Below, piece after piece: positions 37,892 through 62,359 of a stretch of DNA of 64,000 bases. This stretch comes from Firmicutes bacterium HGW-Firmicutes-8 (GTDB taxonomy: Bacteria > Bacillota > Thermincolia > Thermincolales > UBA2595), in contig PGZN01000004.1 of NCBI GenBank assembly GCA_002840165.1, positions 1 to 64,000 on the forward strand, in the 5' to 3' direction. Positions within the stretch are counted from its first letter, which is position 1, and each line of letters opens with the position of its first letter. The notes under the pieces are model-generated. The model saw only the letters and a program-made list of their open reading frames with translations. It was not told the origin of the DNA and did no database searches. The translations under genes and the position numbers were made by a program.

Positions 37892-37953
37892 GAAAAAAGT
37901 GCTGAAAAAAGTGTTGAAAAAAGTGTTGAAAAATTTAGCATATTTGATATAAT
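37892..37953 (+). promoter_or_regulatory. gdhA promoter with upstream 12-bp repeats
   Basis: Three tandem copies of GAAAAAAGTGYT (37892-37927) run straight into TTGAAA (37926-37931) and TATAAT (37948-37953), spaced 16. The A-tracts phased at 12 bp could act as an UP-like or curved element. The repeats and promoter motifs are seen directly. Confidence 0.6.
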
Positions 37954-38016
37954 TGTATATGCAAGTAAAAATTGTGCAACTATCCGTTACGGTTTTTTTC
38001 GCATCAAGCAGTTGTC

Positions 38017-38072
38017 AGGGCAATGGCGTCCTCAAATAGCAGGTATATTTCTTGCTGTTGAGGCGTTTTTTT
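38017..38072 (+). promoter_or_regulatory. ANTAR-type antiterminator leader of gdhA
   Basis: Hairpin AGGGC-AATGGC-GTCCT (38017-38032) has a six-base loop with A1 and G4. Its 3' arm is the start of a terminator (CCTCAA with TTGAGG, then CGTTTTTTT), so the two structures are mutually exclusive. No clear first (P1) hairpin was found upstream; GCAACT with AGTTGT encloses a large loop. Confidence 0.65.
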
Positions 38073-38116
38073 ATTGTTTCAAAAAATACATTTAAACAAA
38101 GGGGAGGAAGAAAGAA

Positions 38117-39463
38117 ATGAGTTTCAGCAAAAGCTCAATTGACGCCTTCATGCAGAAGGTAGCCGCCAACAATCCAGGTGAGGTAGAGTTCCATCAAGCA
38201 GTACACGAGGTAGTATCATCAATTATGCCTTTTATTGATGAGAATCCGAAGTACAAGGATGCAAAAATCCTTGAACGCATGGTGGAACCGGAGCGGGTAA
38301 TTATGTTTAGGGTACCGTGGGTGAATGACAAAGGCGAGATTCAAATTAACCGCGGTTACCGGATTCAGATGAACAGCGCAATCGGACCGTATAAAGGCGG
38401 GCTGCGTTTTCACCCTTCAGTAAACCTTGGCATTCTTAAATTTCTGGCCTTCGAACAGGTATTCAAGAATTCTTTGACAACCCTGCCGATGGGTGGCAGT
38501 AAGGGTGGCTCCAATTTTGACCCGAAAGGCAAGTCAGATAATGAAGTAATGCGTTTCTGCCAATCTTTTATGAATGAATTATTCCGGCACATTGGCGCCG
38601 ATACCGACGTTCCGGCAGGTGATATTGGCGTTGGTGGTCGTGAAATAGGGTACTTGTACGGCCAATACAAGAAAATCTGCAACGAGTTTACCGGCGTATT
38701 GACAGGTAAAGGGCGGGCTTGGGGCGGCAGCCTTATTCGCCCGGAGGCCACAGGATATGGGGCCATGTATTTCGCCAGAGAAATGCTGGCAACCAGAGGC
38801 CAAGACTTCAAAGGTAAGGTTGTAGCCATTTCCGGTTCCGGTAATGTCTCCCAGTATGCTATCGAAAAAGCCATCCAGCTTGGCGCCAAAGTAGTGACTG
38901 TTTCCGATTCGAACGGATTTATCTATGACCCGGACGGTATCAATGAAGAAAAACTTGCTTTCATACTGGAGTTAAAAAATGTGAAACGCGGACGTATTAA
39001 AGAGTATGCCGATAAGTTTAAAAGCCAGTATTTCGAAGGCCAGCGCCCCTGGGGTGTTAAATGTGACGTTGCTCTTCCGTGTGCGACTCAAAACGAGATT
39101 AGTGAAGAACAGGGCAAAGAACTGGTTAAGAACGGTTGTATCTGTGTGGCTGAAGGAGCTAACATGCCCAGTTCCCCCGAAGCAGTTGAAGTTTTCCTCC
39201 AGAACAAGATTCTTTTCGGCCCGGGTAAAGCCGCAAATGCCGGCGGTGTTGCCACCAGCGGTCTGGAAATGTCTCAGAATAGCCTGCGCCTGAGTTGGAC
39301 CCGCGAGGAAGTTGACGAAAAACTCAACAATATTATGGTCGAGATCCATAAACAGTGTGTAATGTACGGCAAAAAAGGCGATTTTGTAAACTACGTTGAC
39401 GGCGCAAATATCGCTGGATTTGTTAAGGTTGCCGATGCCATGGTTGACCAGGGTATTGTCTGA
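38117..39463 (+). CDS. gdhA: NADP-type glutamate dehydrogenase
   Basis: This 448-residue hexameric-type enzyme interconverts 2-oxoglutarate plus ammonia and glutamate. It has [20 protein letters not shown], the substrate motif [10 protein letters not shown], catalytic Lys in [10 protein letters not shown], and [11 protein letters not shown] for the dinucleotide. Length and residues match the small NADP-specific class I (E. coli GdhA type). ATG follows GGGGAGG. Expression is probably set by the ANTAR leader upstream. Confidence 0.94.
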
Positions 39464-39492
39464 TAATTGATAAGCGGCGAAGGAAGAGAACA

Positions 39493-39560
39493 TGAGCTTG
39501 AGCTTGAGCTTGAGCATAATAAGAGTATAGAAAAGCACCCGTCCCAGAAGGGTGCTTTTC
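39493..39560 (+). terminator. gdhA terminator preceded by GAGCTT repeats
   Basis: About four GAGCTT hexamers (39493-39514) precede a stem with arms AAAAGCACCC and GGGTGCTTTT, followed by CTCTTTTC. Confidence 0.75.
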
Positions 39561-39658
39561 TCTTTTCTTGGCAGCGATTATCAATGGCAGGATTTCTCAG
39601 ACGGATAGAGAATTAAATCATTATAAGGATATCACACTTAGGTAACGGGGGGGATTAT

Positions 39659-40723
39659 GTGAGGCTTGTATCTACTGACCATGCCAAACCCCATTCATGT
39701 TTAGCCAAAACAATATATGACGGAAGCGGCAGAATCCTTTTAGCCAAAGGCACACAACTCACCCAGCATTATCTTAAGCGGTTACAGGAGTTGGGTATTA
39801 GTTCGGTTTACGTTGAAGACGGTTTTGTCACATCAATTGAGATAGATGACGTTGTCTCGGAACAAACGCGTATACAGGTCGTGCAGACTACTAAGGAAGC
39901 GCTGCTCAAAATCAAAGCAGGCGGGTCGCCTGAATCGAGAAAAATTAGGCAGGCAGTTGACGATATCATTGACGAAATTCTGGTCTCCAAGGAAACCCTG
40001 GTTCATCTTACTGATATCCGGTCAATGAGGGACCATACTTTTGGTCATTGCGCTAATGTCTGTATTCTTTCCCTGCTCACCGGACTGGCCATGGGATATG
40101 ACCAACTGAAGTTAAAAGAATTGGGGACCGGAGCTCTTTTACACGATGTCGGCAAGGCCATGGTCTCGGATCATATAGTGAACAGTAATAAGATTTTTAC
40201 TGCTGACGAATATCGGCTAATCCAAAAACATGTCGAATTTGGCTTTGAGATTCTCAGGAAGACAGATAATATCAGCATTGTCGTGGCCCATGTGGCTTGG
40301 CAGCATCATGAGAGATATAATGGTCATGGCTACCCGCGAAAACTCGCCGGAGCAGAAATCCTGGAATTTGCCAGAGTTGTAGCTGTGGCCGATGTTTACG
40401 ACGCCCTGTCAACAGACAGGCCGTACCGGGACCGCCTGTTACCCCATGAGGTTGTGGAAATCATCCGCAATTCGATGGGGAGCGATTTTGATCCGGATAT
40501 TGCCAAAGAATTTATCCGCAACATAGCCCCTTTTCCAGTGGGCAGCATTGTACAGCTTAGTTCAGGTTTTAAGGGTGTTGTGTTGAGCGTGAGAAGGGAT
40601 TTTCCCACCCGTCCTCATGTAAGACTGCTGTATGATAACAAAGGGCAGCCTGTGACAGGAGAGCATACGGTGGATTTAATGAAGGAATTGACTGTTTTCG
40701 TAACCAATGTAATCAGAGAGTAA
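39659..40723 (+). CDS. HD-GYP domain protein (putative c-di-GMP phosphodiesterase)
   Basis: This 354-residue protein has an N-terminal region (1-110) of unknown function, then an HD-GYP domain with HDVGKAM, HHERYNGHGYP and DVYDALSTDRPYR, and a C-terminal beta extension (about 290-354; PFPVGSIVQLSSGFKGVV). It would degrade cyclic di-GMP; no diguanylate cyclase domain is fused. The start is GTG with GGGGGGG upstream. Confidence 0.88.
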   Translation: MRLVSTDHAKPHSCLAKTIYDGSGRILLAKGTQLTQHYLKRLQELGISSVYVEDGFVTSIEIDDVVSEQTRIQVVQTTKEALLKIKAGGSPESRKIRQAVDDIIDEILVSKETLVHLTDIRSMRDHTFGHCANVCILSLLTGLAMGYDQLKLKELGTGALLHDVGKAMVSDHIVNSNKIFTADEYRLIQKHVEFGFEILRKTDNISIVVAHVAWQHHERYNGHGYPRKLAGAEILEFARVVAVADVYDALSTDRPYRDRLLPHEVVEIIRNSMGSDFDPDIAKEFIRNIAPFPVGSIVQLSSGFKGVVLSVRRDFPTRPHVRLLYDNKGQPVTGEHTVDLMKELTVFVTNVIRE

Positions 40724-61659: not shown

Positions 61660-61735
61660 AAAACCGCGGAGAGCGCGGAGAAAAGACGGAGGGCGCGGAG
61701 AGAAATCAATAATATTCCGCGGGCTCAATAAAGAC
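61660..61735. repeat. Mosaic repeat copy between amt-1 and glnK
   Basis: GCGGAGAGCGCGGAGAAAAG, GCGCGGAGAG, then AATAAAGACCATAAAGAGAAAG. The GCGGAG module is shared with 21600, 41000 and 44510. Confidence 0.65.
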
Positions 61736-61777
61736 CATAAAGAGAAAGACGAAGTAAAAGTATAAGGAGGAGACCCA

Positions 61778-62116
61778 ATGAAAAAGATTGAGGCAATTAT
61801 TCGACCGTCCAAACTTGATGAGATCAAAGACGCTTTAGGGTTATTCGGTATCCATGGCATGACAGTAACAGAAGTAATTGGCTGCGGTTTACAAAAAGGT
61901 AAAAAAGAAGTTTACCGTGGTACAGAGTACACTATTGATCTCCTGCCTAAAATTAAAATAGAAATTGTCGTCAGAGACAAATGGGTGGATGAGGTCATCA
62001 GGATTTTCATCAATACCGCCAGGACAGGTGAGATAGGAGACGGCAAAATATTTGTTTATGCTGTGGAAAATGCCGTCCGTATCAGGACCGGTGAAGGCGG
62101 GGAAGAAGCAATTTAG
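61778..62116 (+). CDS. glnK: PII signal protein GlnK/GlnB
   Basis: This 112-residue PII protein has T-loop Tyr51 ([10 protein letters not shown]), the signature [11 protein letters not shown] and C-terminal [12 protein letters not shown]. It senses ATP/ADP and 2-oxoglutarate and blocks Amt. Whether it is uridylylated cannot be told; GlnD is not in the window. ATG follows AGGAGGAG. Confidence 0.94.
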
Positions 62117-62152
62117 TTGCTAGTTCCTAGTTTCTAGTTGCTAGTTGAACTG
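62116..62152. repeat. CTAGTTG heptamer repeats
   Basis: Four or five degenerate units of CTAGTTN (TTGCTAGTTCCTAGTTTCTA and on) directly follow the glnK stop. Confidence 0.75.
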
Positions 62153-62195
62153 GACTAAAATATTAGACTTACAATGATTAACGACAACTCTATAT

Positions 62196-62265
62196 AATAC
62201 TACGATGTATTTACAGCAGAGACGCTTCTCGGACCTATTTCGAGGTTTTGAGAGGCGTCTTTTTT
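62196..62265 (+). promoter_or_regulatory. amt-2 leader, first ANTAR unit
   Basis: P2 is AGC-AGAGAC-GCT (A1, G4). It overlaps the terminator GACGCTTCTC/GAGAGGCGTC, followed by TTTTTT. A possible P1, AATAC-TACGAT-GTATT, would overlap the -10 TATAAT (62193-62198; -35 TTACAA at 62169), so either the promoter or this P1 is wrong. Confidence 0.65.
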
Positions 62266-62270
62266 ATAAC

Positions 62271-62359
62271 CCGTTATGTAAAACGGTATTTACAGCTGGT
62301 TGAGCAGTGGCGCTCTCTTGGTGGGAAAATCGGCGTCTTCCCATTAGAGAGCGCTTTCT
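62271..62359 (+). promoter_or_regulatory. amt-2 leader, second ANTAR unit
   Basis: P1 is CCGTT-ATGTAA-AACGG (A1 but T4). P2 is GAGC-AGTGGC-GCTC (A1, G4). P2 overlaps the terminator GCGCTCTCT/AGAGAGCGC, followed by TTTCTG. Confidence 0.7.

Follow-up and report, generated by a model that had tools for sequence, protein, structure and literature searches.

Nitrogen Genes and Their Leaders

The DNA analyzed here, hereafter the window, makes up the initial 64 kb of a 95.6-kb contig (PGZN01000004.1, C104) from Firmicutes bacterium HGW-Firmicutes-8, an anaerobic bacterium whose 2.66-Mb genome is assembled in 108 contigs and is 91% complete. Many of the host's genes for fixing nitrogen and for taking up and assimilating ammonium stand behind leaders built like the ANTAR dual-hexaloop antitermination type, with an upstream hairpin (P1) and a second hairpin (P2) that overlaps a terminator. 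One of the ANTAR genes in the window overlaps a gene for a glutamine synthetase (GS) paralog, GlnA1, which has lost active-site residues and is considered here as a candidate nitrogen sensor.

Two receiver-ANTAR genes lie in the window, as a preliminary description of this DNA had reported. ANTAR1 (35934–36539, + strand) has Pfam Response_reg and ANTAR domains and carries Asn at the phospho-Asp position of its receiver (VIMNAQLP). The end of its gene overlaps by 4 nucleotides (nt) the gene of GlnA1 (36536–37867, +), a protein without the flap residue Glu327 (PGDLSP) and without Ser53 (FDSSV). ANTAR2 (42226–42846, +) has Ala in place of Asp. The search of the 91%-complete genome yielded three ANTAR genes, each on this same contig, and the third, ANTAR3, is situated about 2 kb past the window end.

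The same description had named eight hairpins with hexaloops bearing A at the first and G at the fourth position (A1/G4), and all eight are present, each in its place and with the letters given. In every case (8/8), the 3′ arm of P2 belongs to a terminator stem that is followed by a T-rich run. The gene for NADP-glutamate dehydrogenase, gdhA (38117–39463, +), follows a leader at 38017–38067 (+) in which P2, AGGGC-AATGGC-GTCCT (loop at 38022), overlaps the terminator. The asparagine synthase gene asnB (45001–46845, −) is preceded by a leader (46920–46982, −) with P1 CAGGTAC-AATGGC-GTACCTG, P2 AGGC-AATGAA-GCCT (loop at 46956) and a terminator. Upstream of nifH there are two modules, each ending in a terminator: module a (47841–47895, +) with P1 GATAC-GCAGCT-GTATC and P2 AAGC-ACAGAA-GCTT (loop at 47865), and module b (47919–47991, +) with P1 CGTAC-CAAGGT-GTACA and P2 GGGC-ACAGGG-GCCT (loop at 47942). 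The nif operon behind them (48031–57941, +) contains nifH, two P-II-like genes (nifI1 and nifI2 by position), nifD, nifK, nifE, a nifN/K-like gene, nifB(-X), and genes for a 2Fe-2S ferredoxin and an AnfO-like protein. The last of these (57312–57941), a member of an Fe-only nitrogenase family, ends a molybdenum-type nif operon.

Tandem modules with terminators also precede two ammonium transporter genes. In front of amt-1 (60259–61659, +), module a (60070–60131, +) consists of P1 GATAC-ATTGAT-GTATC and P2 GGGC-AATGAC-GCTT (loop at 60091), and module b (60151–60225, +) of a weak P1 candidate (ACAGTA loop) and P2 GAGC-AAAGAT-GCTC (loop at 60179). A gene for a P-II protein of the glnB/glnK type follows (61778–62116, +). 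The leader of amt-2 (62410–63813, +; start picked by eye in the open reading frame 62248–63813) comprises module a (62196–62259, +), with P1 AATAC-TACGAT-GTATT and P2 CAGC-AGAGAC-GCTT (loop at 62218), and module b (62277–62354, +), with P1 TGTAAA-ACGGTA-TTTACA and P2 GAGC-AGTGGC-GCTC (loop at 62306).

Dual Hexaloops Exceed the Chance Background

The preliminary description had treated the A1/G4 hexaloop overlapping a terminator as the signature of an ANTAR target. The architecture stands, and as sole evidence this signature is weak, because a scan for P2 plus terminator gave 16 hits in the window, where 20 dinucleotide shuffles gave 7.55 on average, an approximately twofold excess (8 against 1.2 at a stricter score). 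The shuffled mean is also an argument for regarding the leaders as ordinary terminators, or attenuators of another kind, whose hexaloops arose by chance. The case for ANTAR leaders is made by adding P1, which the earlier description had missed. Under a strict dual test, requiring a P1 hexaloop with G4, a linker of 0–16 nt, P2 and a terminator, the window has eight such places, whereas in 60 shuffles their number averaged 1.13 and never exceeded 4. Six of the places in the window are described leaders, so that six of the eight leaders carry the upstream hexaloop; the other two, at 2855 and 16516, are unassigned. P1 commonly has the form GATAC-NNNGNN-GTATC or is near it.

Default RNA folds of the eight leaders form the terminator stem and not P2, and contain the P1 hexaloop in 4/8 (it is absent from that of nifH module b). 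The formed terminator and unformed P2 agree with the EutV model as presented in passages of PMC8934654. Rfam 15 returned no match at gathering score across the whole window and no relevant family at an expect value (E) of at most 10 within 37000–64000.

Leaders Elsewhere in the Genome and in Relatives

A covariance model, R1, was built from six modules, five in the window and one in the adjoining stretch (L004), and 150 of 384 first-look candidates in the genome were scored with it. The top eight hits were all on C104 and corresponded to the six seeds and two held-out leaders. The best score in the genome, 40.2 bits, was that of the asnB leader, itself a seed, and the sixth seed precedes ANTAR3-glnA2-glnN at contig position 65957. 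The held-out leaders, both with an overlapping terminator, stand before amt-3 (contig 64345; 19.3 bits, E 0.8) and before glnA3 (contig 84672; 16.9 bits, E 3.0). The two lowest hits (on C64 and C8) were dropped, no P2-terminator being visible in them by eye. A second model, R2, was built from 61 hits and scored 150 of 748 candidates; it recovered seven of R1's eight places, and its eighth hit, of 15.7 bits, lay elsewhere. The leaders of gdhA and amt-2 module b were listed by neither model in the genome searches, and amt-1 module b gave a weak R1 match of 13.1 bits in a local search only. Behind the ANTAR-led glnA3 come mvhD-like, metV, metF and glutamate synthase genes (L015:8672–18142, equivalent to contig 84672–94142). 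If this run is a single transcript, a one-carbon enzyme is tied to nitrogen control.

Covariance support in homologous leaders, on which the preliminary description had made its reading depend, was found: R1 hits at E ≤ 0.01 occurred in 9/9 relatives from the family or order, as against 1/21 other genomes, and in 0/10 of those among the 21 that have no ANTAR gene. In a phylum sample that included the host's own family, R2 had hits at the same threshold in 31 of 249 genomes. The leaders were then compared across 23 stretches (3 from this genome and 20 from relatives), fetched for containing hits and therefore not a random sample. Among 71 distinct hits scoring 14.5 bits or more, 70 had an overlapping terminator; 83 of 85 hits entered this check, the other two being window places re-read from L004. 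Of the 70, 65 stand 62–409 nt upstream of nitrogen or ANTAR3 genes (amt 28, ANTAR3 11, glnA 11, nifH 8, asnB 6 and glnB 1). Of the other five, two stand before a DraG-like hydrolase, two before an MtbA/corrinoid pair and one before an unassigned frame, as named from sequence reading. The P1 loop has G4 in 69 of the 70 modules and A1 in 48, with a linker of 0–16 nt, and the P2 loop has G4 in 70, A1 in 56 and G1 in 14, counts that are partly circular as the hits were selected by a model favoring those letters. Covariation supports both stems on alignments selected or fitted by structure, with 50 double-sided cells against 13.3 in shuffles (0/500 shuffles as high), a support that is inflated by the choice and alignment of hits by the model. 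In a structure-free alignment, ten genomes share both P2 modules of amt-1, one genome being truncated within module b by the end of its stretch; the P1 region of that module varies. The leader of gdhA, whose P2 is conserved in 5/5 leaders (its own included), is the odd member of the set in showing no hexaloop P1 by eye.

The dual test, the genome-wide ranking, the conservation in relatives and the 0/10 result in ANTAR-less genomes together disfavor chance hexaloops on ordinary terminators so strongly that this explanation is scarcely credible. Conversely, an ANTAR regulon is close to certain.

Some leaders in relatives occupy other positions. In G008 (L060:10036–10980, −), a nif-type tandem leader precedes a gene read from its sequence as a DraG-like ADP-ribosylglycohydrolase, and nifH was not found within the stretch read. 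In G007 (L061:6306–7998, −), two ANTAR-type leaders stand before genes read from sequence as an MtbA-like methyltransferase and a corrinoid protein, which suggests that methylamine-type nitrogen sources belong to the regulon. Five relatives (L047, L057, L058, L061 and L064) have a second leader between ANTAR3 and glnA2, so that glnA2 would need another antitermination event there; in the present genome, only about 20 nt separate the two genes. Apart from the leaders, imperfect inverted repeats of 55–86 nt, 78–81% complementary, occupy intergenic DNA at 41000–41600 and 44300–44925. Some carry CGCGGAG-type motifs, and similar motifs were seen by eye near 61670.

Promoters of the nif Operon

The preliminary description had also proposed that antitermination, and not NifA/sigma54, may be the main switch. 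The antitermination architecture is supported; the dismissal of sigma54 is weakly supported, as 7/8 family relatives encode that factor. A sigma54 DNA-binding domain was not found in the 91%-complete genome; with so many relatives possessing one, the absence may be an assembly gap, and it was rejected as proof against sigma54 control. Sigma54 with a NifA-like activator might therefore be the main nif switch and the ANTAR leaders a secondary brake. Yet the strict sigma54 consensus has no match near any leader, its sole match in the window being at 293 (NifA was not searched for), and a sigma70-like site (11/12) stands directly before the nifH leader, although shuffled sequence has nearly as many sites of this type (29.6 against 35). 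This arrangement is considered improbable.

ANTAR Receivers and Kinases

Orthologs of the three ANTAR proteins were taken as best matches of at least 47% identity; one protein at 45% (G013, with Ala) and eight more distant ANTARs (30–38%, all with Asp) were excluded from the ANTAR1 and ANTAR3 counts. The phospho-acceptor Asp is found in none of ten ANTAR1 orthologs (nine Asn, one Ser) and in none of ten ANTAR2 orthologs (six Ala, two Ser, two Glu). ANTAR3 has it in 10/10 family copies from nine genomes and has Glu in an order-level relative. Thus, the receiver Asp of an EutV/EutW-type system is absent from ANTAR1 and ANTAR2 and present in ANTAR3.

Kinases of ANTAR proteins are typically of the HisKA_2 type, a relationship that kinase/ANTAR adjacency in the relatives supports. 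None of the five genomes with only ANTAR1–3 yielded a HisKA_2 kinase, whether the present one (91% complete) or the others (75%, 63%, 99% and 99%); other kinase families were not searched. Five other family genomes contain eight HisKA_2 hits, each within about 1.2 kb of a different, further ANTAR gene, and the ANTARs linked to them have the Asp in the seven cases read (G005:C44 was not read). Since the ANTAR1–3-only genomes yielded none and those found accompany further ANTARs, it is unlikely that a kinase of the HisKA_2 type serves the nitrogen ANTARs.

A regulon switched by phosphorylation of ANTAR3 through an unlinked kinase of another family, with ANTAR1 and ANTAR2 as modulators, for instance in heterodimers, would fit the ANTAR3 receiver, in which Asp and Lys are kept in 10/10 and Thr in 9/10 family copies, and the leader that ANTAR3 itself possesses. 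Against it, HisKA_2 kinases are missing as described, and the order-level relative G009 has Glu for Asp in ANTAR3 and still has leaders. It is the strongest of the competing explanations and is nonetheless unlikely.

A Glutamine Synthetase Paralog Beside ANTAR1

GlnA1 matches solved glutamine synthetases over nearly its full length, the best at 532 bits. Residues are numbered as in the Salmonella enzyme; the sites named in the passage of PMC6529630 drawn upon are Glu327, Asp50, Tyr179, His271 and Arg344. In the flap, GlnA1 has PGDLSP where GlnA2 and GlnA3 have PGYEAP, and FDGSS is changed to FDSSV. It thus has Leu for Glu327 and Val for Ser53, unlike an active type I GS at the flap and ammonium site, and keeps Asp50. 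Glu327 and Ser53 are lost in 7/7 family orthologs, where the Trp57 position (Phe in the canonical proteins here) is altered too; of the other eleven sites examined, only Arg344 (Lys in three) and Arg359 (Ser in one) show changes. This comparison omits GlnA2 of G001 and G008, the flaps of which were seen separately. Selection maintains the gene in the family, as the ratio of nonsynonymous to synonymous substitution rates is 0.08–0.11 in five family pairs of glnA1 (0.03–0.045 for glnA2). Decay as a pseudogene was rejected on the same values and on seven open family frames. An AlphaFold model of GlnA1 from nine sequences, with a mean predicted local distance difference test score of 64.9, was too poor and was not used.

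The pairing with ANTAR extends beyond the family. In a phylum search of 299 genomes with nine GlnA1-type queries, themselves from ANTAR-linked genes, the best match of each of 30 genomes was fetched with 1.5-kb flanks. Fourteen lacked the flap Glu and had ANTAR directly upstream in 14/14, against 5/16 of those with Glu. Over all stretches examined, flap-less GS genes (one per genome or record) follow an ANTAR gene directly in 18/18, at a distance of −1 to 342 nt, so that a candidate sensor gene stands beside an ANTAR gene as in systems of the AmiR-AmiC and NasT-NasS type; in this genome GlnA1 overlaps ANTAR1. The neighbor counts leave out GS hits whose alignment spanned no more than 380 residues or failed to include both motifs. 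The 18 flap-less proteins fall on one side of one branch in a quick tree (Shimodaira–Hasegawa-like approximate likelihood ratio test, SH-aLRT, 100), in which two long pseudo-GS branches (G118 and G168) meet. The ANTARs beside them also group on one side of a branch (SH-aLRT 92). Glu327 and Ser53 are each present in 0/18 of this clade and in 64/64 canonical enzymes.

GlnA1 might instead be a working γ-glutamyl-amine ligase that merely shares an ANTAR operon, with sensing located elsewhere. The ligases GlnA4 and PauA7 likewise have no Glu327 according to passages of PMC6529630, which speaks against a sensor, and such ligases are said in passages of PMC11335346, on NpaA1, to have lost GS catalytic residues. 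Most presumed metal and glutamate sites are moreover kept in the seven GlnA1 family orthologs. However, the same portions of PMC6529630 describe GlnA4 and PauA7 as also lacking Asp50 and Tyr179 and as having much larger flap loops. The flap-less clade differs on each point, having Asp50 in 18/18, Tyr or Phe at 179 in 17/18, and an Arg321–Arg339 stretch of 18 residues in 18/18, the length found in 64/64 canonical enzymes. All 18 are linked to ANTAR, and Glu357 is lost in 8/18, His269 in 4/18 and Glu129 in 3/18, losses that are hard to square with one conserved ligase activity. The numbering of Glu357 and His269 and their roles in metal binding are presumed. A ligase is accordingly judged unlikely, a little more so than control through ANTAR3 phosphorylation.

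Proposed Control of the Regulon

The explanation favored here, to which a probability of about 85% is assigned as a whole, is that the window holds much of an ANTAR-antitermination nitrogen regulon; that ANTAR1 is gated by a pseudo-GS is a narrower proposal, put below even odds. In the proposed mechanism, P1 would be the recruiting hexaloop, through its G4, and P2 a second hexaloop whose 3′ arm starts the intrinsic terminator. Without active ANTAR protein the terminator would form, and transcription would halt before nifH, amt-1, amt-2, asnB and gdhA and, outside the window, before amt-3, ANTAR3-glnA2-glnN and the glnA3-metVF-glutamate-synthase genes. Active ANTAR protein, by analogy with EutV, would hold the P2 hairpin, block the terminator and allow the genes to be transcribed. 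Because ANTAR3 has a leader of its own, it is predicted to amplify its own expression and the response. The signal probably does not pass through a HisKA_2 kinase. Rather, ANTAR1, which has no phospho-acceptor, may be held or released by the co-encoded GlnA1, a candidate ligand-binder that has lost Glu327 and Ser53 and kept most of the other active-site residues examined. Its ligand, for which glutamate, glutamine, 2-oxoglutarate and a nucleotide are candidates, would report the nitrogen state. The architecture and conservation of the leaders, the gene linkage and the residue losses are observed; we infer from them the action of ANTAR proteins on the leaders, the gating of ANTAR1 by GlnA1 and a nitrogen metabolite as ligand.

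Several observations weigh against this interpretation, in addition to the selection of covariance hits and the ligases without Glu327 noted above. The strict dual test found no canonical P1 in the leader of gdhA or in the second amt-1 module. Where P1 would be, gdhA has an element with AACT...AGTT pairing (37976–38016, +, limits approximate) that is partly conserved and is not a hexaloop, as judged by eye; this element may be an alternative means of recruitment or may respond to some other signal. The own-genome list of R2 (150 of 748 candidates scored) lacks amt-3, gdhA, amt-1b and amt-2b. Of the five genomes in which HisKA_2 was not found, two have a completeness of only 63% and 75%. ANTAR is also upstream of 33/64 canonical GS genes, in a sample enriched for ANTAR loci because many stretches were fetched for their ANTAR, so adjacency alone is no proof of contact. 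Three of ten ANTAR1 orthologs (G002, G005 and G009) have no pseudo-GS neighbor, which means that the partner is not indispensable. The receiver Asp is kept in 6/18 ANTARs next to a pseudo-GS, and loss of phosphorylation is thus not a general feature of the pair. The position equivalent to Arg62, presumably the feedback residue of the Bacillus enzyme, is Arg in just 3/18 flap-less proteins, making Bacillus-type glutamine feedback unlikely.

Beside the three unpaired ANTAR1 genes, gdhA follows in G002 and nothing was recognized nearby in G009. In G005 (L161:1524–4832), ANTAR1 is followed by a frame read from its sequence as glutamate-synthase-like and by ANTAR2. The estimate for the sensor was lowered when the third such ortholog was found, and GlnA1 as the sensor now stands somewhat short of an even chance. 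The wider proposal, that a GS-pseudoenzyme lineage, passed down jointly with one ANTAR lineage in several bacterial families, serves as a dedicated nitrogen sensor that binds a nitrogen metabolite and captures or frees the RNA-binding antiterminator, is rated slightly lower still. If true, a dead enzyme of metabolism would control, via RNA, both the fixation of nitrogen and the uptake and assimilation of ammonium. No GS pseudoenzyme paired with an ANTAR protein was found in the titles, abstract openings and passages of open-licence papers.

Relation to Known Systems

The leaders add members to an already known kind, and the new part is the candidate sensor. The passages of Ramesh et al. (2012) on this RNA and its nitrogen regulons describe such leaders before nitrogenase, ammonium-transporter, P-II, glutamate-synthase and glutamine-synthase genes; Desulfotomaculum acetoxidans has 13 of these elements, distributed over six units (PMC3369931). 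The joint coverage of nif, amt, gdhA and asnB, singled out in the preliminary description, is therefore not new in kind. The present regulon resembles those of D. acetoxidans, D. reducens and Pelobacter carbinolicus in its terminator-overlapping dual-hexaloop leaders on nitrogen genes, and differs from them, as those passages describe them, in also including asnB, gdhA, the glnA-metVF-glutamate-synthase run and ANTAR3 itself (PMC3369931).

P1 and P2 hexaloops with A1 and G4, and a P2 inside the terminator, are shared with the EutV/EutW system of Enterococcus faecalis, in which G4 is the only base-specific contact of EutV in the accounts drawn upon (PMC8934654, PMC3369931). Unlike EutV, which those accounts describe as phosphorylated by the kinase EutW, ANTAR1 and ANTAR2 have no phospho-Asp, and no HisKA_2 kinase was found. 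NitR of Clostridium saccharobutylicum, in the portion of PMC6316151 concerned with it, is likewise an ANTAR protein tied to nitrogen-assimilation genes, inducing those for GS and glutamate synthase under nitrogen limitation. In Clostridium thermocellum DSM 1313, the GS gene Clo1313_2031 has a locus number next to that of the ANTAR gene Clo1313_2030 (PMC4676874). The arrangement proposed here, a receiver-type ANTAR under a ligand-binding partner and not a kinase, is closest to AmiR-AmiC and NasT-NasS as outlined in PMC3369936 and PMC3795266. In those outlines NasS resembles a nitrate-binding protein and AmiC is a small-molecule binder, whereas the candidate partner here would be GS-derived. The passages drawn upon deal with the RNA and with the kinase or binding-protein partners of EutV, AmiR and NasT, and name no nitrogen sensor for the ANTAR regulons of anaerobes. 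The ANTAR and pseudo-GS pair provides a concrete, testable sensor candidate.

The GS of Bacillus controls TnrA, an active enzyme thus serving as nitrogen sensor for a DNA-binding target. The proposed pair would be similar in that a GS protein acts as sensor on a regulator, and different in that the sensor would be a paralog without Glu327 and the target an RNA-binding antiterminator. If true, the idea of GS as a nitrogen sensor would extend from DNA-binding regulators to RNA antitermination.

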